Made by a program: the position numbers and the translations under genes. Positions 1,944-16,980 of a stretch of 64,000 nt of DNA are shown here, one piece after another; the first letter of the stretch is position 1; every line of letters begins with the position of its first letter. Source of the stretch: Acarospora socialis (Eukaryota; Ascomycota; Lecanoromycetes; Acarosporales; Acarosporaceae). The stretch is from positions 2,604,001 to 2,668,000 of the forward strand of contig JAMYGW020000002.1 in NCBI GenBank assembly GCA_025617375.2. Direction: 5' to 3'. The notes under the pieces were generated by a model. The model did not search any database. It was not told where the DNA came from and was given only the letters and a program-made list of their open reading frames with translations.

Positions 1944-2370
1944 TATCGGTGTGTGACATGCTTTGGTCAGCATTCGGAGGCGTTGCATTGCTGGAGTCGG
2001 TCTGGGGCAAGCTAAGAAAATACCCTCGGCTTGTGTACGCAAGTCAAGGTGCTCTACTTCGTAGTATATATAACATTCATGGTATATTACAAATACTATA
2101 CTTTGATCTGTCATGGTTTGGACGTAATCCTCCTCTGCCATCCCGTGCAATGCTGGGCAGAAGGGAGTCAAGACGGAAGGTGACTCTAAGCGGCAAATAG
2201 ACCGTTCTGCCTCTATGTGACCCAGCACCCAATCTAGAACCCGCGCAAGCAGCCAAGTCGCCATCATACGCCGACCAGCCGCCTACCTTGCCAGGACGAA
2301 GCTCCTCTCAGCCCACACCGAGCACTTCGGAATGGCGCCTCGAACCCCTCCCCACTCCCCCGCCTCCCCC
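1944..2370. other. convergent 3' intergenic region
   Basis: This is 427 bp between the GPI8 stop and the stop of the CCDC124-like gene on the other strand. It contains TATA-like AT runs (around 2065-2100) that would serve as 3' UTR/polyadenylation sequence. I see no further structure. Confidence 0.5.
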
Positions 2371-3225
2371 TCACCTCGCGCCCAACCGCGCCTCCACCTT
2401 CTCCCTCTCCATCTCCTTAACCTCCCTCACCTCCTCCCTCGTCGCATCGAACCGCACACTAACCTGATTGAACGGATTCTCCGGACTCCTCTCAAACTCC
2501 CTGCGCACGACCTCGACCCGCTGCTGTCTCCTCAACCCCTTCATCTCCTCCTCCAGCTCCGGCAGGCGGCGTGCCTCGAACGCCGCGTACGCCGCCTTGA
2601 AGCGCCGCTCCGGGTGCCGGTCGACCTTGTCGGACGCGTTGTTGGATGTCAGCGAGAGCGCGTCGAGCGCGTTGTCGATGCCCGTTGCGTTGAGGGCCGG
2701 CGCCGCTTTCGAAGACGACGAGCTCGGGGACGGGGTCGAGTCGTCGAGGGCGGAGAGGTCGAGACCGCGCGTCTTCTTCGTCGCTGTCTTGGCGTTGGCG
2801 CCTTTGGGCGTCGCCCGCGCCGTTTGCTCCTCGGCGGCGAGGAGGGCGTCTTTTTCGGCTTTCTTGCGCGCAGCCTCGGCTTTTTTGGCGTCGGCTTCTT
2901 CTCTGGTGAGGGGGTGGGTCAGTACATGGGCTGTTTAGGGGCGGGGGTGGGAAGGAGGGATGAGATGGTCCTAGGGGAAGGAAGCCAAAGACGGAGGGAG
3001 ATGGAGCAGACGCACTTCTTGGCGTTCGACTTGGCGCCCTTGCTCCATTCTCGGTCCTCCGCGACGGCTTTCTTGGCGTTTTCGGCGGCCGCTTTTTGCG
3101 CGGCTATTTCTGCTTTCTGAGGTTGCGGGTCAGCGTTGTGAAGCTACGAAATGGGTGGTGGGTTGGGTTGCCTTGGCATTTCCGGCGGCTTTCTTGGTGT
3201 TCTCGGCGCCTACTTTCTTGGGCAT
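2371..3225 (-). CDS. CCDC124/Lso2-like ribosome-associated coiled-coil protein
   Basis: Exons on the minus strand are 3225-3172, 3116-3016 and 2902-2371, giving 228 residues. The start MPKKVGAENTKK matches the conserved CCDC124 N-terminus. It is followed by a long Ala/Lys/Glu helix (coiled coil) and then the C-terminal family block HPERRFKAAYAAFEARRLPE ... SPENPFNQV. CCDC124 and yeast Lso2 bind the 80S ribosome and help recovery from dormancy; that role is taken from the family. Intron 2 (3015-2903) has ordinary GTGCGT/CAG ends. Intron 1 (3171-3117) begins GCAACC, so it is a GC-AG intron. It has a GCTGAC branch-like motif, keeps phase, and no GT donor gives an intron longer than about 35 bp. 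A low-complexity Ser/Ala segment separates the two conserved blocks. The 5' leader carries a 17-bp tandem repeat. Confidence 0.88.
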
Positions 3226-3771: not shown

Positions 3772-6538
3772 TTACCCAACCACAACCTTCATACTCAAAG
3801 ACTCCAAGAAGCCGCTCAAGTCATCCTTCTTGACCTCAACGACACAATGCTCGAAGCTATCGATGCGGACCCGAGCATTCGTCTCGTCCACGACTTCCTG
3901 GAACGCGTTGCCGAAGCGATTGCGGCCGTGGCCTCTTGATTCCGTGATCACGTCGTCGTCACTATCGTCGCTCGAGTTATCCTCCGCATCTTCACTCTCG
4001 TCGTCTTCTTCCACACCATCATCTCCACTTCCCTCACCATCCTCCCTCTCCTCCCTCTCCCTTCTCTTCCTCTCCCTCTCCGCCTTCCTCGCCTCCCTCC
4101 CTTTCTGCTTCGCCGCCCTCTTCTCCTTCCGTTCCTGCCGTTCCGCAAAGTCCAAAACACCCCCACCTCCTCCCGTTCCGACGACAACGTACACGCCCCG
4201 TGCCTCGTTGAGCCCCGCTAGCACAAGCGGCGTGCCTTTCTTGCCCGACGACCCGCGCTTATCTCGCTCCTGTTCCGCAATCGCCTCGCCGACCCAGAGC
4301 GCTAGCTTTGTCAGCGCCGCCGGGTGCGTGAACAGGTGCACGTCGGGCCCTTCTTTGACGATCGCCATGCGGAAGGCGCGGAGATGGCGGATTTGTCGCT
4401 TCTCGATTAAGGAGGTGCCGGTGCGGAGGATGGCGCGGTGCAGGTGCATGGCTGTTGGGAGGGCGAGTTTAAGGGCTTCGACGCTGTGAGTTGGCCGTGT
4501 TAGTTTACTGCTTGTCTTGAGTTGCCCTTTTGGAGTGGAAGAAGGGGGATTTTCACTTTTCCAGCGCGTCATACGCCTCCCAGAAGCGCCCGACCCACTC
4601 TTCGCCTTCCTTGTGGCCCTCCTCGTCTACCAGTTCTCTCTTCTCCGCTCTGTTCCGATCGAAGCCTCCGTTCTCGGACGCGTGGACGCCTGCTTTGCCG
4701 ACTTCGAGAATGGCGCCGACGACGACGCCCACGTCCGTGGCACTCAGGCAGGCTTTCCAGCCCCAGCTGCGCACGAAGCCCCAGCCATGACGGCTCGGGT
4801 TTACGCTCGTCGCTGGCGGAACTAGCCCGTCGAGACCGTAGAGCGGCGCGTATTTGAGCAGTAGCTCGCGCAGTCGACGCTTGAGATCCATGTCCATGTG
4901 TGTGTAGCTTTGCTTGCATTGGCTCAGGCTCACGCCCATCTTTGCAAGGAACTTGTGGAGACGCTTCCGGCCGACGTCGCTCCAGATGTGCAGTTTCGCG
5001 GAGAGGTAAGGTGAGTGTAACATGCTGTCGTATAAGGACCAATGCCGGATGAGGAGGAAGCGAGGCTCGGGCGAGAGCCGGATGGAAGTGTCGGTGGGTG
5101 AGCGCGCGGTCGTGGGGATGACGCCTGAGGCGTCGGTGCGGTAAAAGTCTCGCCCTGCGTCGCTGAGCTCGGGCGGATTGATTCGCCTTACCTCGTCCCT
5201 TAGGACCTGTCGGATCCGTTCCCCTCTTTCACCGCCCCAGCTGGAAGTCATGTCGGACTCGGAAAAGGAGGAGATGCTGACGCCGGTCATCGTCCGCCCA
5301 TATAGTTCGAGGGAGCTCACGCCGACGATGGCGTACCAGAGGAGATCGTTGTCTTCGCGGCCCAGTTCAGAGGCAAGAGAGTAAAGGAGGGATGAGATTG
5401 GTTCCGAGTATGAGGCACCCAAGGAATAGTAAGCTCGAAGAACGGCCTCGTGTTTCCGCCGCATGCCTAGCAGGCGCCTTCTGAGCGTTCGGGCAGAGGG
5501 AGGCTTTGGAAGTCTTCGGGGTGATGAAGAAGGATAGTTCTGTGTGGGTGATTGAGGCGAGCCAGTAGCATTGTTAGCAAGGTGCGTATGGTTTGAGGTG
5601 GATAGGAGGCCACGTCGAAGGGGCTTCGATGAATATGGCGATGGCGATGGCGATGGCGATGGCGATGGCGATGGCGATGGCGATGGCGATGACGATGACG
5701 ATCTTGAGGCGTCCTTGGTTCAGACTTAGTTTTCGCTATGATGCTACTCGCTATCGAGACTTACAGAGCTGCTTCTTCGTCTTTGCCTAGGCCTTTCGTC
5801 TTCAGCGTCGCTCTCGTCAGATCTATCTTCTCGGTCAGATGTAGACTTCCGTTTCTTTGACACCCTTGGGTGCTCCTCTGCGGCAGCAGAACTGTCGTCA
5901 CTCTCGGAGCCTTCGCTGCCGATTCCATCATCCCCCACGTCAGGCATCTCTGCAAGTGTACAGTATGCTTCTCGTTCGATATTCAACTCCTCTTCTACGT
6001 CTCCATCATCGAATACGATAATACCGCCCTCTCCAGGCTTGTAAGACCGCTGAATTTGCCCTCGATCGACACCCTTCTCTCGGTTCTGCACGTTGCCATC
6101 CACTTCCGCCAGCGCTTTTGGCGCCGATTGCCCACCGAAAACATTGCCCAGATTCCACGGCCGTCGAGCATCTATGACCCACACTTCCACACCGCCATGG
6201 TCCTGTGACCGGTCCTCATCCAATTGCAGCCCTAGCACGGTACTTAGATCCACAAGACCGCCAACCCCCAAGCAGACCACTACCCCTCCACTGCCGCCAT
6301 CGGTCGTACGCATCGGCTGGACCAGCTCTTCGCCTGCGCGCGCGAGGTCGCCATAGCCAGACACGGGCTGGATCTTGTGCGGAATGTAATCGCGCTTGAG
6401 CAGCGTTGTGAGGATCCGACATGCGCAGAGAGCGTCCGGATCTAAGGCGACGAGCAACAGTACCGGCGGGGAGAGAGGGTGGTGGGTTCGTAAAAGGTGG
6501 AGGTAGAGGTGCGAGATAAGACTTCGTGGAAGGAACAT
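3772..6538 (-). CDS. CDC45: DNA replication initiation factor Cdc45
   Basis: Cdc45 is the CMG helicase cofactor that joins Mcm2-7 and GINS at origins and forks. Exons on the minus strand are 6538-5765, 5539-4557 and 4483-3772, giving 822 residues. The N-terminus (MFLPRSLISHLYLHLL, then ALDPDALCACRILTTLLKRD) is the conserved DHH-like fold start. An acidic/basic low-complexity region with a KKRK cluster follows at about 205-260, as usual in Cdc45. The block YSEPISSLLYSLASELGRED, the junction DALEN-VEALKLALPTAMHL and the block GTSLIEKRQIRHLRAF are all family signatures. The C-terminal domain carries a strongly charged Lys/Arg/Glu/Asp insert typical of filamentous fungi. Intron 1 (5764-5540, 225 bp) is long for this genome and holds an ATGGCG microsatellite. 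Intron 2 is 73 bp. Phases agree throughout. Confidence 0.96.
5635..5700. repeat. hexanucleotide microsatellite in CDC45 intron 1
   Basis: There are nine tandem ATGGCG units followed by two ATGACG units on the plus strand. They lie wholly inside the 225-bp first intron of CDC45, which runs on the minus strand where the unit reads CGCCAT. Read on the plus strand the repeat would code Met-Ala repeats, but there is no gene there. Confidence 0.95.
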
Positions 6539-7538: not shown

Positions 7539-9545
7539 ATGGCTAAATCAGGGTCAGGGCTACTTGCTGGGAGACCCGACGCCGAATATCTTAGATTCAC
7601 CCGCTCAAAGCTTGTTGAAGTAGTTCAGTCGCTCGGTCTCACCCGTGGACTTAGTGGTCTGAGTAAGGTAGGGATTCTTGGGGCGTTGAAAGATCATGTC
7701 CGCGACGCACGACCCCGGATAACTGACAACCGAGTTCGCACTGCTTTTGGTATAGCCGCGCCACCACGACGTCCTCGAGCGCCCCAAGTTCCTCCGCCGC
7801 CACAAGTACCTCCACCGGGTCAGGCTCCTGGAGTTGGGCCAGCCCCTCCGCCGCCACAGGCTCCTCCAGTGCCACCACCAGCTCCTCCAGTACCGCCACC
7901 CGTTCCTCCACCCGGTCAGGTTCCTGGAGTGGGCCCAGCTCCCCAGCCACCACAGGATCCTCCAACAGGCCAGGCTCCTCCACCAGCACAACAGATAGAG
8001 CTACCTGTGATAAGAATAGAAAAACCAAGGGCAAGGTCTGCAGAACCGAGCTCTACGGACATCCAGGACATCCTCCGTCGCATACTCAAAGCCCTCGAAC
8101 GGAAAGATCCGGAGCTCATTCCGCCATACAATCGTGGGCTGGGCATTGATCCAGAAGCAGATGATCCTAGGTACAAGATACCTTCAAGCCAAGGGCTCAC
8201 CGTGTCCAACGCTCAGGCGTTCATGACAGCCCTTTCGATTGCTTACCCAATTGGCCCAGGTGCCGAAGTTTCCTTCGTGAAGATGACAACCACAGGGTCG
8301 CCAGCAAGGTACGTCTTTGCCGATGGCAACAGCACCTATCCCTTTCGTGGGAGAGGGCCGGTTTGGAGATCTAACTCCTGTGCGGTCGACACTGTCATTG
8401 TGGCTGCCATGTTTCTCGATGCAGGGTCGACAACAGCAGATAAGGGTACTGCAACACGCACATCATGGATGGACTCGCTTACAGTCACACAACGAACATT
8501 TCTGGACACGATCAACTTGGATTGGAGGAGCATCTCGGTGGAGAAGAGCATGGAGCTCCGAGATATATACCTGGATATGTTCATCCGTGCCATGAACTCA
8601 AACCGCTCGGCAGACAGTACCGCGCCCGAGTTGAAGAAAGGCATGTTTATGTCGGCGATTGCCGCCTGGGAACTCAGTACCATGAACTTCCACCAGTTTA
8701 CCTTCTTGACAAAAAGATTTCTCAACGTGTGCAGGTCATGTGGAGCCCGGACCGAACTTCCGAAAGAAGATGCTCCCGAGAGCAGTGTAGCTATTGAACT
8801 GAGAAGGGACGAACACAAGCAGGACCCGCCACCAACGTTCGAACGCTTGCTGAGGAACTATTTTGGCTACACGCCACTGAGGGACTGCAGCAAATGCAAG
8901 GCTCAAGGTACCCGATTTCGACGCCGTCTGATCGTTGGCGACCTCCCCCCGAGACTGGTGGTTCAACCCCACGCCGATTACAGGCACATGCCGGGCTACG
9001 CCACAGATGATGTCTCCTTCGATTACGAGGACCCCGAGGGCATCGAGCGCCGCGCGAAGTACCGCTGGCTTGGCGGAATTTACTTGTACAACAACCATTA
9101 CCGGACCTACTGGAATGACTCCAAGGCTGGGGACAGAACTCAGCTCCTTCGATTGTACGACGGGCAGCATTATGGTGGCATCATCATAGGAGGCATCCAT
9201 CGCAGAGAACCTGACGCCGGGGACGAGGACCAGAGGAGCCTCTTTGGAGGTTGGGAGGATGGAACGGATATTCTCTTCTACGAGCGGACGGACAATCCGT
9301 TGGTGGAGAGTGTATCTGCGGTTGTGCGGAAAGCGGCAGATGATCTTAACAAGCAAGGTGGAGACGACAAGCAAGATGACGATGATGATGACAATGGGGG
9401 CCCTGGAGACGGTGATGATGGGGGGCCGGGAGACGGTGACGATGGGGGCCCTGGAGACGGTGACGGTGGGAACGATGGGAACGATGGCAAGCAGGGTAAC
9501 GGCCCGACTCAAGGTGGGACAGAGGTAATGGTAATCGATGATTGA
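7539..9545 (+). CDS. SAP-like plus USP-like cysteine peptidase domain protein
   Basis: Single exon, 668 residues from the ATG at 7539. Residues about 17-56 resemble a SAP-type helix-extended-helix (YLRFTRSKLVEVVQSLGL). A Pro-rich linker spans about 76-150. From about residue 265 the pattern looks like a ubiquitin-specific protease: a Cys box WRSNSCAVDTVIVAA (Cys281), two paired cysteines CRSC and CSKC (398/401 and 450/453) as in the USP zinc ribbon, then a His box NNHYRTYW (His520) followed by LYDGQHYGG (Asp541). A DUB-like thiol hydrolase on DNA or chromatin is therefore possible, but this is inferred from motif order, not from a match I can verify. The C-terminus is a Gly/Asp tail with a 24-nt repeat. 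Other options are a Ulp1-like or CYLD-like peptidase, or an inactive relative. The neighbour downstream is an F-box gene. Confidence 0.75.
   Translation: MAKSGSGLLAGRPDAEYLRFTRSKLVEVVQSLGLTRGLSGLSKVGILGALKDHVRDARPRITDNRVRTAFGIAAPPRRPRAPQVPPPPQVPPPGQAPGVGPAPPPPQAPPVPPPAPPVPPPVPPPGQVPGVGPAPQPPQDPPTGQAPPPAQQIELPVIRIEKPRARSAEPSSTDIQDILRRILKALERKDPELIPPYNRGLGIDPEADDPRYKIPSSQGLTVSNAQAFMTALSIAYPIGPGAEVSFVKMTTTGSPARYVFADGNSTYPFRGRGPVWRSNSCAVDTVIVAAMFLDAGSTTADKGTATRTSWMDSLTVTQRTFLDTINLDWRSISVEKSMELRDIYLDMFIRAMNSNRSADSTAPELKKGMFMSAIAAWELSTMNFHQFTFLTKRFLNVCRSCGARTELPKEDAPESSVAIELRRDEHKQDPPPTFERLLRNYFGYTPLRDCSKCKAQGTRFRRRLIVGDLPPRLVVQPHADYRHMPGYATDDVSFDYEDPEGIERRAKYRWLGGIYLYNNHYRTYWNDSKAGDRTQLLRLYDGQHYGGIIIGGIHRREPDAGDEDQRSLFGGWEDGTDILFYERTDNPLVESVSAVVRKAADDLNKQGGDDKQDDDDDDNGGPGDGDDGGPGDGDDGGPGDGDGGNDGNDGKQGNGPTQGGTEVMVIDD
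9391..9470 (+). repeat. 24-nt coding tandem repeat (GGPGDGDD)
   Basis: Three copies of a 24-nt unit encode GGPGDGDD in the C-terminal tail of the SAP/USP-like protein, followed by degenerate GNDGNDG. The copies differ by single synonymous or near-synonymous bases. Confidence 0.85.
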
Positions 9546-10294: not shown

Positions 10295-13200
10295 ATGGCC
10301 GCCGACGCCGGAATGGAGCTCAAGCAGGGCATCGAGGCTGGCGCGAAGAGGCCCGGCATTGAGGACCTCCCAATTGAGACGCAAGAGGGTATTTTTAAGC
10401 ATGTCAGTATATCGTCCAAATGGAAAGGGTTATGCTCATTGTGGTAGTCCGCCACCAACGACCTCCTGGCACTCGCTCTTGTGTCAAAGCATTTCCACGA
10501 CCTAGCAAGCGCTCAGCTATATCGCGTCCTCGAGTTCAGTCTTGTGGACATGGGCGACTTGGACTACATCTCTCAGACCTCACGAGCAACTAGTGGTCTG
10601 GAAACGTTGGTAGCAAGCGGCCATGATTATGCGAAGTATATCAAGGAATTACAGCTGGGTGCACCAGGTCCGGACGAGCGCACATGGAGGACTCCAGGAG
10701 ATAACTTTGTTAGCGGCCGGTTGCTGAACACATTGCTACTATTGGCATTGAAGAAAGCAAGAGCCTTGGAGACATTCCAGTGGGCCACCCAGCATTTTAA
10801 GGTTATGGCTCTTCGTGACTGACGAACCTACGTGTAGATGGAACCTTCGAATTGAACTGAATCGATCTGTGTTTAGAGCTCTCCATGACATTGGGGGTCT
10901 ACAACACCTTCGGATACGCTTGAAGGCAGGCCCATCAATACATGTCGAGCCTCCGCCCCCACCCATGTCTACCATAACCAACTCTCTGTCTGCGTCAAAT
11001 CCCTCTAGTATGCCATGGGTATTCACGGTCAAGGTCCCGAAACCATCGCAGCCCACTAAACCATTGAACGCCCCTTCAACGTTTTCAGGCTTCAAATCGC
11101 TGAGCAGCTTAGCAGTGCTTGATATGGACACGCTGGATCATGTACCTGAACTCACCCAGTGCATTCTTTCGTCGGCTTGCACGTTGAAGAGCTTAGAATT
11201 GTCCATATCGGAGGCTATGGCTCTAAGAGCCCGCAAGCCTGGTGCTCCACAAGAGTCGGATGATGAATCCGATCCAGAACTTGATGAGAATGACAATCCC
11301 TGGGCTGCTCCTCCCCCTATGCCGCCACCACCTGCCGCTGCAACTCTGGGGCCTTTACCTCTGTCGAGCGAAGCCGATATCCGCAAGGAGCGGCTTGCTC
11401 AAGAAAATCTTCTGGCTCGAATTTTTGGTCTAGAGAATCTGAGTGCTGAAGCCCAGAAGATGGACAGGGAAACCGAACCTGTTGCGGTGAAGCCTCGAGA
11501 GGATGCACAGAAGGCTTTTCTTAAAGACCTGAAGACCGTAATGTCCAAGCTTATTGTTGCAACCTCGTCGCAGACTGGGGGTACCTTCAAACCACAAAAG
11601 GCGCTCGACATGGTTGAGAAGGCGGCCGAGAAGTACCTTAATGCAACTGAGAAGGCAGAAAGTGGCTCGTCAAAGAAGACTGGCAAGAGTCTGGGACATG
11701 GTGGGAAGAAAGTATCTACGAAAAAGACAGTACCATTCTTCAACAAGGGAAGCGCAATGGAACATCCACCAGGACCGGTAGCATCTAGTAGTGAGTCGGC
11801 AGACGTGTTGATCAACTTCGACTTCGATTCATTCTTGGACCCATCACTCAAGGACAGTCCTTATCCAGGGAACGACCACAAGTCAAAAAGCAAGAAGCCT
11901 CCGATGCCCCCTGGACACTCCTCAAATATGCCGCCGAAGATCTCTAAGCAGCCTAGTCACTTCGGCCAGCATTCACCAAACACCATGTCGAATTGGACAT
12001 ATTCATACTACGTAGGAAACCCTGAAACAACCACTCACGCGATATCCAAGGGGAAAGCAAAACTTGTCGACGCGGCAGAACCGGCCACAAGTTCGAAGAT
12101 TGTGGACGGGGATGAAGACGAATCTGATAGCCCGGGACTCTTCGACACCCCTGCCGGCTCGGTCAAAGCTAGTAAACGCTTACAAAAGGAGGCTGATGAC
12201 ACAGATGATATTGATATCGAGCACCCTGACGTCAACACTCTTGATGAAGGGGACGACCAGGAGAGCGATGATTCATCTGGGGTTGAATCCGAGACGAAAG
12301 TTAGAAATGTGTCAGAGGCTGAAGAGCCGGTTGAGGGTCTGAAGTCATCACGGTTAACGAACGGGACGACCGTGAGCGAATATATGCCACCGAAGGCGGC
12401 TGATAACAGACCGGACTCCGCAATAGGACCTGTTACATCCGTCACTAACGGGCAGGCCGCCGATATGGCTCAACTCACAACAGAACAGGCGATGCAGGAC
12501 TACGTACGCTCAGTGCATGGTCTTCCATTGGAAAATCTTGCATTATACCTCATCCCGATCAAGCCTTCCGTGCTGTCGAGAGCTATTGATTTGACAATGC
12601 TGAAGAGTGTCACCTTGCTCAATGTTGGGCCCCAAGGCGGCTTCTGGTCAGTCATGGCCAAAAAACATGCCGAGACTCCATTACAACTCCGGTATATTCA
12701 CACAGACAATGTCACGCCATCATTCCTGTCCTGTGTCCATAGTCTTTCGGGCCTCGCGGAGCTCTACATGGTGGAGCGCAGTAGTAAAAGCAAGGTCGAG
12801 TCCCTAGCGCCCAACACGGTAGTCGGGATCGAAGACATCCGCCAACAGGTTCTCATCAAGCACATCCGAACCCTTACGAGACTCATGATCAAGAACGAGA
12901 ATGACAACGGCCACACCTGGGACCTGAACGGGAAGGCGACGAGGCTGATAACGACCAAAGGTCACAACTTGACTGAACTCGCCGTCAGCTTAGACTCGCG
13001 GAACTCGGTAAGCACCACCCCCCTAGCCCCAACCCCCAGTCCCCATCCTCAACCCGGCACCAAAAACAACACCCCCTCCCCGGAGTACTGAACTGGAGAC
13101 TGACCGCCCATAGCACCTCTTCATGCAAAACCTCTCCGGCCTCCAGAACCTCTCCGCCCTTCACATCCTCCACTTCCGCTCCGACGACACCTGCATCTGG

Positions 13201-14567: not shown

Positions 14568-16781
14568 TCATTGGTAGCGTGGGCCAGTTCTACCGTCGAG
14601 ATGCAGACGGTTCATGTCGTCGAATCCGAGCTGCAATATGCCAACCGAGCCGTCGCCTTGTATCACCCTGCCAGAATCATCACCTGCTGTTGAAATCGGA
14701 AACGGATAGTAAAGATTCTCGTCCGCCGCAGCAGGTTGCTTCCTTGATGATCCCCCCGCCTTCTTCAGCCCTCCCGGTACAACATACGGCGGATGTAGAT
14801 TGAGGTCTTGCATGCGGATCGGATTCGGGTCCACAGTCTCGCAGAGGCCGTTCTCGCGCTTGAAAATCTCCAACCATTGCTTGTTATCAGCTGGCGTCTG
14901 GTTCCAAGGATCGTCGTCGTCGAAGACGATGCGGCGGCCTTGGTCCCGGAGGATCTTGTCGCTCGGTATGATGCCTGCTTCGAGGAGGTCCTTGACGTAC
15001 TCCGAGAGCAGACGCTCGAGGCGGCGGTAGCAGTTGGCGTCTCGGATGTGAAGATCTTGACTATCGGAGGTGGCGGCTGACATGTTGACCTTGGGGACCA
15101 TTGCGTTGGCGGAGAAGGGGTTCATCGATGCGCGGTCCTCAGCAATCATGTAAGGGGGCATGGCGTTCTCGACAAGTCGGTCCACGTGTGGCTGGAAGCC
15201 CCAGTCTCCCGTCCAGTGTGACATGTCGGCTCCAGATTTGAAGTGCGCGGCCAGGTGATCGACGCGGCATTGCCAGGTCGTGAACACCTTCGGGCAGAAA
15301 CCGCAACAGGACTTGATGTCGACGGCGGCGGACTTCCAATTCTCCATTGTGTCGTCGAACTTGCACTCGTGGACCAGACGTAGGTGCTGGCGGAGATGAT
15401 CTTTGCGGTAAAATGTTCGCTCGGGTAATGTCTTCTCTTGACACGCGCTGTAGTTGTGGGTCTCAAGATGACTCGGTCTGGGATTAGGTGCGTTGCAAAA
15501 CACGCAAACGGTCCCGCCCTGAGGTGTTGTTATCACACCGCCATACGGTGCACAGGTCCACTTCTCAAGTGCTAGATGAAGGGACTTCTCATGGCGTTGC
15601 CAATCGTACTTGGCTGGAAAGGTGTCGGTGCAGAAAGTGCACTGATAGATGCGTGCGCTGCGCGCTTCGTTGGGTTTTCGGTTGTTGGTGACTAGCCTCT
15701 TTGTACGACGTCGCCGTCCTCTCTTCTCCATAGAACCAAAGGAGCCTTGAGAGCGATGGGAAAATGCAGAAGCAAAAGACATATCTGAGGTGCTCGAATG
15801 ACCCGTGTTCAAACTACTCATGGAAGGTGCTCTAAAGACGGAGAAACTAGACTGGTCGCTGGAATTCTGGCGAGAACGTGCACGGCTTTCGGAGCGAGAT
15901 GACTCTTCGGGGTTGTAGCTGGTAGTTGCAACAGCATTGGCTATAGCGGAGACAGAAGCGGGTTCATTCTCGGGAGGGGATTGCTTCCACCGTTCGAGCG
16001 GACTCATGTCTCGAATCGATTGATGTCCAAGGTGGGAAGCTCCATAAGGGATGTCGACGGGTACGGAGCGGGCGACGGAAGGTGACGTCGCGCGGAGGGG
16101 TCGGACCCTGCCCCTACGACGGGCATTTGCGAGCCAGTTGGAAATCTGACTTCGCTTCAAACCCGTCTGCTTCTTCAACTCATCCTTTTGGCGCTCGCTT
16201 GGGTAAGGTAGATGTGAGTGCTCGGCGAACCAGTCCTTCAAGACCTTGACCGCTTGCCTGGAGAAGCGAGTACCGCTCTTTCGGGCTATGCTTTCACCCT
16301 CATCAAGGGAAGGTGCCTGGAAAGGTTGCATCCCGCTCGTGTTAACAGGGGGCGGACTTCCATTTAGGTTAGGTTCTTCGAAAACCCCAGGAAAGCCGTC
16401 TAATTGCACACCGTCTTGCTGGATCAAACTGCAATTCCTGAACAGCGCGATACAACTCGTGCAGCCCTTTTGCATCATCCCATAGGTTGCAATAAAGCAT
16501 TCAAGCCCTCGTCCTCGACAGTAATCACAAGCTCTTTCAGGCCTGTACATGGGTCCCATACCGTTGCCGGAGGTGCCGGGGTTGTTTAACTCATCTGTAG
16601 AAGATGGGAGAGGTGGAGGTGGAGGAGGACCCGTTCCTTCCTTGAGTTGGTTCTGGAAGAAGATATCCGCATCTTCAATGTGGTCGGGTATAGCTGGAAT
16701 TGCATCATAGGCAAGGAAATCTCGTAGACAATCCTCCGCAATGAGACCTTCTGCAGCTTCCTCGAAATCAAAGTATTCCAT
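14568..16781 (-). CDS. TALE homeobox / C2H2 zinc-finger transcription factor
   Basis: Single exon, 737 residues from the ATG at 16781 (MEYFDFEEAAEGL). A Cys cluster CDYCRGRGLECF ... CTSCIALFRNC at 85-117 resembles a Zn2Cys6-like knuckle. A homeodomain at about 168-226 has the TALE hallmarks: the PYP loop extension and recognition helix SQISNWLANARRR. A Ser/Arg-rich linker with a basic GRRRRTKR stretch follows. C2H2-type fingers come next: YQCTFC ... H-x4-H at about 380-402, FYRKDHLRQHLRLVH at 458-471, and CGFCPKVF ... DHLAAH at 493-513. It is thus a nuclear regulator; targets are unknown. The frame stays open upstream to an ATG at 16949, adding 56 hydrophobic residues. I prefer 16781 because that extension looks unlike the protein and lies partly in a duplicated segment. 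Confidence 0.85.
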   Translation of the reverse strand: MEYFDFEEAAEGLIAEDCLRDFLAYDAIPAIPDHIEDADIFFQNQLKEGTGPPPPPPLPSSTDELNNPGTSGNGMGPMYRPERACDYCRGRGLECFIATYGMMQKGCTSCIALFRNCSLIQQDGVQLDGFPGVFEEPNLNGSPPPVNTSGMQPFQAPSLDEGESIARKSGTRFSRQAVKVLKDWFAEHSHLPYPSERQKDELKKQTGLKRSQISNWLANARRRGRVRPLRATSPSVARSVPVDIPYGASHLGHQSIRDMSPLERWKQSPPENEPASVSAIANAVATTSYNPEESSRSESRARSRQNSSDQSSFSVFRAPSMSSLNTGHSSTSDMSFASAFSHRSQGSFGSMEKRGRRRRTKRLVTNNRKPNEARSARIYQCTFCTDTFPAKYDWQRHEKSLHLALEKWTCAPYGGVITTPQGGTVCVFCNAPNPRPSHLETHNYSACQEKTLPERTFYRKDHLRQHLRLVHECKFDDTMENWKSAAVDIKSCCGFCPKVFTTWQCRVDHLAAHFKSGADMSHWTGDWGFQPHVDRLVENAMPPYMIAEDRASMNPFSANAMVPKVNMSAATSDSQDLHIRDANCYRRLERLLSEYVKDLLEAGIIPSDKILRDQGRRIVFDDDDPWNQTPADNKQWLEIFKRENGLCETVDPNPIRMQDLNLHPPYVVPGGLKKAGGSSRKQPAAADENLYYPFPISTAGDDSGRVIQGDGSVGILQLGFDDMNRLHLDGRTGPRYQ

Positions 16782-16904
16782 GGAAGAAACCACCACGAAC
16801 AATGGCGAAATGGAATTAAAGGAAAGAAGACTTAAGGAAAGCAATATAAGCACTGAATCACGTTCTCGATGTTGACTGACAAAGCGGTCTGGAGAAGCTA
16901 ACAG

Positions 16905-16980
16905 TGATGACTCTTCAGGTACGGGGACGGGGCTGCAGCTGATTGACATGTTGCGCCCTTCTGGATCCCGAACGGGTATA
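16905..16980. repeat. direct duplication, copy A
   Basis: This segment begins TGATGACTCTTCAGGTAC and ends CCGAACGGGTATA. It recurs at 17874-17950 in the same orientation with about four differences. Copy A lies across the upstream open extension of the homeobox gene. Confidence 0.9.

Follow-up and report, generated by a model that had tools for sequence, protein, structure and literature searches.

The question raised by this locus of Acarospora socialis is whether it encodes a peptidase of the ubiquitin-specific protease (USP) type fused to a SAP-like DNA-binding segment, as was proposed in an earlier note on this DNA. The window, that is, the whole stretch of 64,000 nucleotides that was analysed, covers positions 2,604,001 to 2,668,000 of the forward strand of contig JAMYGW020000002.1 (assembly GCA_025617375.2); the host genome is eukaryotic and comprises 31.1 Mb in 38 contigs. 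Translation of positions 7539-9545 on the plus strand of the window gave a frame of 668 amino acids running from ATG to stop. Most likely, the product belongs, as a far-diverged member, to an enzyme class that is already known and is not wholly new, because the active-site and zinc-binding landmarks stand in the right order. These landmarks and the other features of the gene are listed below.

7539-9545, plus strand: whole predicted product, a 668-aa frame from ATG to stop (translation, codon usage)
7575-7706, plus strand: possible SAP/Rho-N-like helical domain, residues 13-56 (model and Foldseek ranking; the sequence test was not significant)
7764-7997, plus strand: Pro-rich linker, residues about 76-153, with imperfect 18- and 21-bp repeats (translation, repeat analysis)
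8370-8393, plus strand: Cys box SNSCAVDT, starting at residue 278, with predicted nucleophile Cys281 (translation; USP catalytic Cys column in 3 of 3 alignment modes)
8730-8741, plus strand: first CxxC (CRSC, 398/401), predicted finger zinc ligands (translation, profile alignment)
8886-8897, plus strand: second CxxC (CSKC, 450/453), predicted finger zinc ligands (translation, profile alignment)
8943-8963, plus strand: LPPRLVV, putative equivalent of the P-x-x-L strand that follows the USP fingers (profile alignment)
9090-9113, plus strand: His box NNHYRTYW, starting at residue 518, with predicted general base His520 followed by Tyr521 (translation, alignment; aromatic gatekeeper rule as described in passages of PMC7391069)
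9153-9164, plus strand: LYDG, starting at residue 539, with predicted third catalytic residue Asp541 (first D of USP FDD in two of three modes, gap in the third)
9270-9290, plus strand: ILFYERT, putative equivalent of LFY, the C-terminal strand of USPs (profile alignment)
9345-9542, plus strand: acidic tail rich in Gly and Asp, containing a 24-bp tandem repeat at 9389-9470 (translation, repeat analysis)

Codon usage was modelled on seven segments of the same genome, and the six frames of the gene were compared. The annotated frame was the best of the six, with scores of 0.069 per codon for the whole ORF and 0.086 for the core, which were slightly under those of the seven training segments (0.095-0.173). 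The score of codons 1-75 was -0.020, yet the annotated frame was still the top one there. In the Pro-rich linker, codon usage showed no preference for the annotated frame. The linker itself, which had been described previously, was present at residues about 76-153. The 18- and 21-bp repeats that encode it lie at 7780-7910, and the acidic Gly/Asp tail is encoded by the 24-bp tandem repeat at 9389-9470.

The protein contains only five cysteines in total (281, 398, 401, 450 and 453), and these are exactly the proposed nucleophile and the four proposed zinc ligands. Cys281, the CxxC pairs 398/401 and 450/453, His520 and Asp541, which the earlier note had read as an array in USP order, were all located by translation at these residues and in this order. 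With a loosely USP-like spacing, none of 100,000 shuffled versions of residues 205-602 showed the pattern C - CxxC - CxxC - H[FYW] - D, the pattern and its spacing bounds having been defined post hoc, with the sequence already seen. The CxxC-CxxC part alone appeared in 11 of 100,000 shuffles of the same residues.

When the whole protein was compared with Pfam, no family was found at E up to 10, and neither UCH nor UCH_1 gave a row at E up to 10 with the whole protein or with its pieces. The pieces matched only weak, unrelated rows, namely Zn_ribbon_Nudix (E 8.8 and 0.092) and HTH_AraC (E 0.19). The gene is also absent from the 27 Pfam UCH rows of the genome. A PDB sequence search with the protein returned six weak unrelated rows and no USP, and a PDB search with a profile of its core and a second locus of the genome, described below, returned no rows. 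The single-sequence model of the catalytic part (pLDDT 31.5, pTM 0.19) was unusable for fold.

The core was then compared with the USPs of the same genome. Ten UCH loci were taken from the 27 rows, and seven USPs entered the reference alignment; L011, L012 and L014 were excluded owing to broken or partial frames. The reference set itself has gaps: L007 and L009 are without a complete Cys box, L013 stops before the His, and one or both finger CxxC pairs are missing in L008 and L009. Residues 205-602 aligned to these seven USPs with a local hhalign score of 31.9 (probability 16.6 per cent). This score was reached by 0 of 200 plain shuffles (highest 24.3) and by 0 of 150 cysteine-fixed shuffles (closest 31.2); the reversed sequence scored 15.7, and 32 further open frames from the window, each at least 200 aa long and represented by its first 400 residues, scored at most 18.0. 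When the alignment was made end to end (residues 261-602), the score was 17.9, compared with at most 9.7 in 100 cysteine-fixed shuffles and at most 14.2 in 100 plain ones. Each reference USP scored 113.8-225.2 against the other six, far above the 31.9 of the window core. Similarity of the protein to the USP profile is therefore above chance. The proposal of a USP-like peptidase was thus supported in comparisons with plain and cysteine-fixed shuffles, the reversed sequence and the 32 frames, and gained nothing from Pfam UCH or from the PDB sequence search.

The contribution of separate segments was uneven. The finger segment alone scored 28.7, and 0 of 100 shuffles were as good (highest 23.5); the His-box segment alone scored 17.7 and was marginal (3 of 100 shuffles as good). 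The Cys-box/thumb segment alone scored 11.7, which was at chance (64 of 100 shuffles as good), and the thumb was not recognisable. Judged from these alignments, the USP-profile signal sits mainly in the fingers, and the case for the catalytic boxes comes from their order and their placement around a significant finger domain. This distribution of the signal could also be read as that of a zinc-ribbon protein unrelated to USPs, in which the CxxC pairs only imitate those of USP fingers; for a finger piece, the top Pfam row was indeed Zn_ribbon_Nudix (E 0.092), which spans ten residues. Such a protein would not readily account for a score that beats cysteine-fixed shuffles both locally and end to end, nor for the position of the Cys, the His and the LFY strand on USP columns, with Cys and His jointly placed in 0 of 60 control shuffles. 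This non-USP explanation was therefore considered unlikely.

The placement on columns was checked by aligning the core with one canonical USP (L006) in three modes. In two of the three, Cys281, Cys398/401/450/453, His520, Tyr521, Asp541 and Phe580-Tyr581 all fell on the matching residues of this USP, i.e., the catalytic Cys, the four finger cysteines, the GHY box, the FDD aspartate and the LFY strand. The third mode gave the same placements except for Asp541, which stood opposite a gap. In a control with 60 shuffles in which C, H and D were held in place (local realigned mode), the four finger cysteines were placed right in 20, Cys281 in 6 and His520 in 3; Cys281 and His520 were jointly right in 0 of 60, as was Asp541. 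Because it was reproduced in 20 of 60 such shuffles, the placement of the finger cysteines alone is weak evidence. It appears from this control that finger placement follows easily from the cysteines, which is not the case for Cys281 and His520 placed together. A global realigned version of the C/H/D-held control gave zero everywhere, with 7 of 120 shuffles yielding no alignment; it was given no weight, since in the global unrealigned mode the shuffles aligned over a median of 12 columns only.

The earlier note had also remarked that the usual GLxNxGNTCYxN sequence is absent, and this is true of the protein. Trp276 sits on the column of the USP oxyanion Asn in all three modes. This Asn, five residues before the catalytic Cys, is present in all five reference USPs with a complete Cys box (L006, L008, L010, L013 and L015). 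The residue that follows His520 is aromatic. According to passages of PMC7391069, an aromatic residue after the catalytic His is enriched in proteases that cleave after Gly-Gly, among them USPs and USPL1, which cleaves SUMO; the same source cautions that in single cases this feature can be due to chance.

Only one other locus in the genome matched the protein. It lies at 4286-5525 on the minus strand of L003, approximately 14 kb from the end of a 1.67-Mb contig, and was found as two pieces in the search; reverse searches from it recovered the window gene with E-values of 0.198 and 8.9e-4. Its first piece (24% identity over 108 aa) and its last piece (42% over 50 aa) were each better than 300 of 300 shuffles. 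The middle piece was not above chance (30 of 300 shuffles as good), and an apparent loss of one CxxC pair at this locus, noted by eye, was dropped on this ground. The N-termini of the two proteins showed no likeness (1797 of 2000 shuffles as good), and the stretches preceding the catalytic part were equalled by 185 of 2000 shuffles. The second locus contains an in-frame stop, and its reading needs more than one frame; for this reason, it looks like a second, broken member of the family, with unusual splicing as an alternative.

At the second locus, NSSAID stands against NSCAVD of the window protein and RYKVFW against HYRTYW, so that Ser and Arg replace the catalytic Cys and His. These replacements, the missing oxyanion Asn and the strong divergence would suit a protein that has retained the USP fold and is catalytically dead, a pseudo-deubiquitinase that binds the modifier or serves as a scaffold like Sad1 or Pan2; inactive USP-like scaffolds are known, as described in passages of PMC10318531. 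The Ser and Arg prove little, because the gene that carries them looks broken. In addition, the Cys, the His-aromatic pair, the Asp and all four zinc ligands co-occur in the window protein, and a dead domain would have little reason to retain them. In UCH_1/Pan2, Sad1 and other inactive USP-like proteins, the fold is USP-like and the function is eroded (PMC10318531, in the passages concerned), whereas the window gene has the catalytic Cys, His and Asp and gives no UCH_1 hit. Loss of activity is thus an improbable explanation, though one to be kept in mind, and isopeptidase activity of the window protein is probable and not assured.

Relatives were also sought in other collections. IMG/VR gave 2 pattern matches and the prokaryote species genomes gave 13, none of which was confirmed, and no plasmid matched at E up to 1; little follows from these results, because the collections are not fungal. 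No such family was found in the titles and abstract starts of the top-ranked open-licence papers.

The N-terminus was studied separately. No Pfam match to SAP was found for it. A SAP alignment was built from six segments of this genome (five above the Pfam cut-off and one, L021, just under it; L022 had been dropped as partial); against it, the N-terminus scored 10.7, which was equalled by 20 of 150 shuffles, while the six segments, each left out in turn, scored 21.8-46.2. The single-sequence model of residues 1-72 had a mean pLDDT of 62.9 and a pTM of 0.46, with helices at 13-18, 22-31, 43-56 and 59-70, an order that is SAP-like. A Foldseek search of this model against PDB yielded 24 rows with E-values up to 10, of which the lowest was 2.7. 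Ten of the 24 were Rho (four), FAN1 (four by name and 4rea, which we take to be FAN1 as well) and the SAP domain of a rice SUMO ligase (one); such rows held six of the top seven ranks, with the FAN1 matches made at entry level only. FAN1 carries a SAP domain, and the Rho-N domain is SAP-like. The possible domain resembles SAP and Rho N-terminal domains in the helix layout of a 72-aa model and differs from them in having no significant sequence match and in every Foldseek E-value being above 1. The SAP-like segment proposed previously was thus not significant by sequence and was weakly favoured by a model of middling confidence and by the Foldseek ranking; on the latter grounds, we lean towards a SAP-like domain.

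The genomic neighbourhood was characterised by a Pfam scan of a set of ORFs of the window near the gene, and the possibility that the gene is the cargo of a mobile element was considered. Upstream, Pfam identified CDC45 on the opposite strand, split into three ORFs, and a C13 peptidase at 601-1218; the upstream ORFs at 1224-2267 and 2332-3120 had no Pfam match. Just downstream, the interval 10296-13091 on the plus strand comprises what looks by eye like an F-box-like start, followed by a 758-aa ORF without a Pfam match. Approximately 5 kb downstream, a 793-aa ORF at 14568-16949 on the minus strand contains a KN homeodomain (E 5.7e-18) and a Tc5-transposase DNA-binding domain (E 3.4e-7), and a weak C2H2 finger in the same frame (E 0.0045) is under the curated cut-off.

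Taken as a whole, the gene probably encodes a far-diverged USP-type isopeptidase, papain-like, with Cys before His and zinc-fingered. It shares with the USP/UBP family (MEROPS C19, UCH PF00443) the order of Cys box, CxxC, CxxC, P-x-x-L, His-aromatic, Asp and LFY, as well as the above-chance profile score; unlike that family, it has no Pfam UCH hit, its Cys box reads NSCAVDT, there is no Asn five residues before the Cys, and the thumb is not recognisable. If this assignment is correct, residues about 261-590 would form a thumb, fingers that bind zinc, and a palm. In catalysis, His520 and Asp541 would polarise Cys281, and Cys281 would attack the bond that follows the C-terminal Gly-Gly in ubiquitin or in a ubiquitin-like modifier, with the modifier's tail resting against Tyr521. 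Stabilisation of the oxyanion would fall to the backbone or perhaps to Asn279, because the canonical Asn is absent and Trp276 stands in its place. The Pro-rich linker would join the catalytic part to the small N-terminal helical domain, possibly SAP-like, which may bring the enzyme to its substrate, perhaps chromatin.

The modifier could be SUMO rather than ubiquitin, which would make the protein convergent with USPL1 (C98); this is a special case of the USP-type reading and overlaps with it. USPL1, too, is a highly diverged USP of low identity that has zinc fingers and a triad of Cys, His and Asp, as described in passages of PMC8983731, and nuclear SUMO substrates would be in keeping with a SAP-like domain, should the protein have one. 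In contrast to USPL1, the window protein has no match to the Peptidase_C98 profile (PF15499), and none was found anywhere in the genome; SUMO specificity is quite unlikely. A more elaborate form of the USP-type reading is an isopeptidase that is tethered to chromatin and belongs to an undescribed subfamily of USPs, confined to some fungi, in which the Cys box and the oxyanion site have been remade; the enzyme would settle on DNA by its SAP-like domain and remove ubiquitin or SUMO from chromatin proteins. This extended version is conceivable and rather doubtful.

If the assignment to the USP type is right, Pfam-based counts of USP-type enzymes are incomplete, and the USP family can dispense with the oxyanion Asn. 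The protein would then offer a natural means of finding out which features of a USP are indispensable, and it would possibly add a DNA-directed member to the family.
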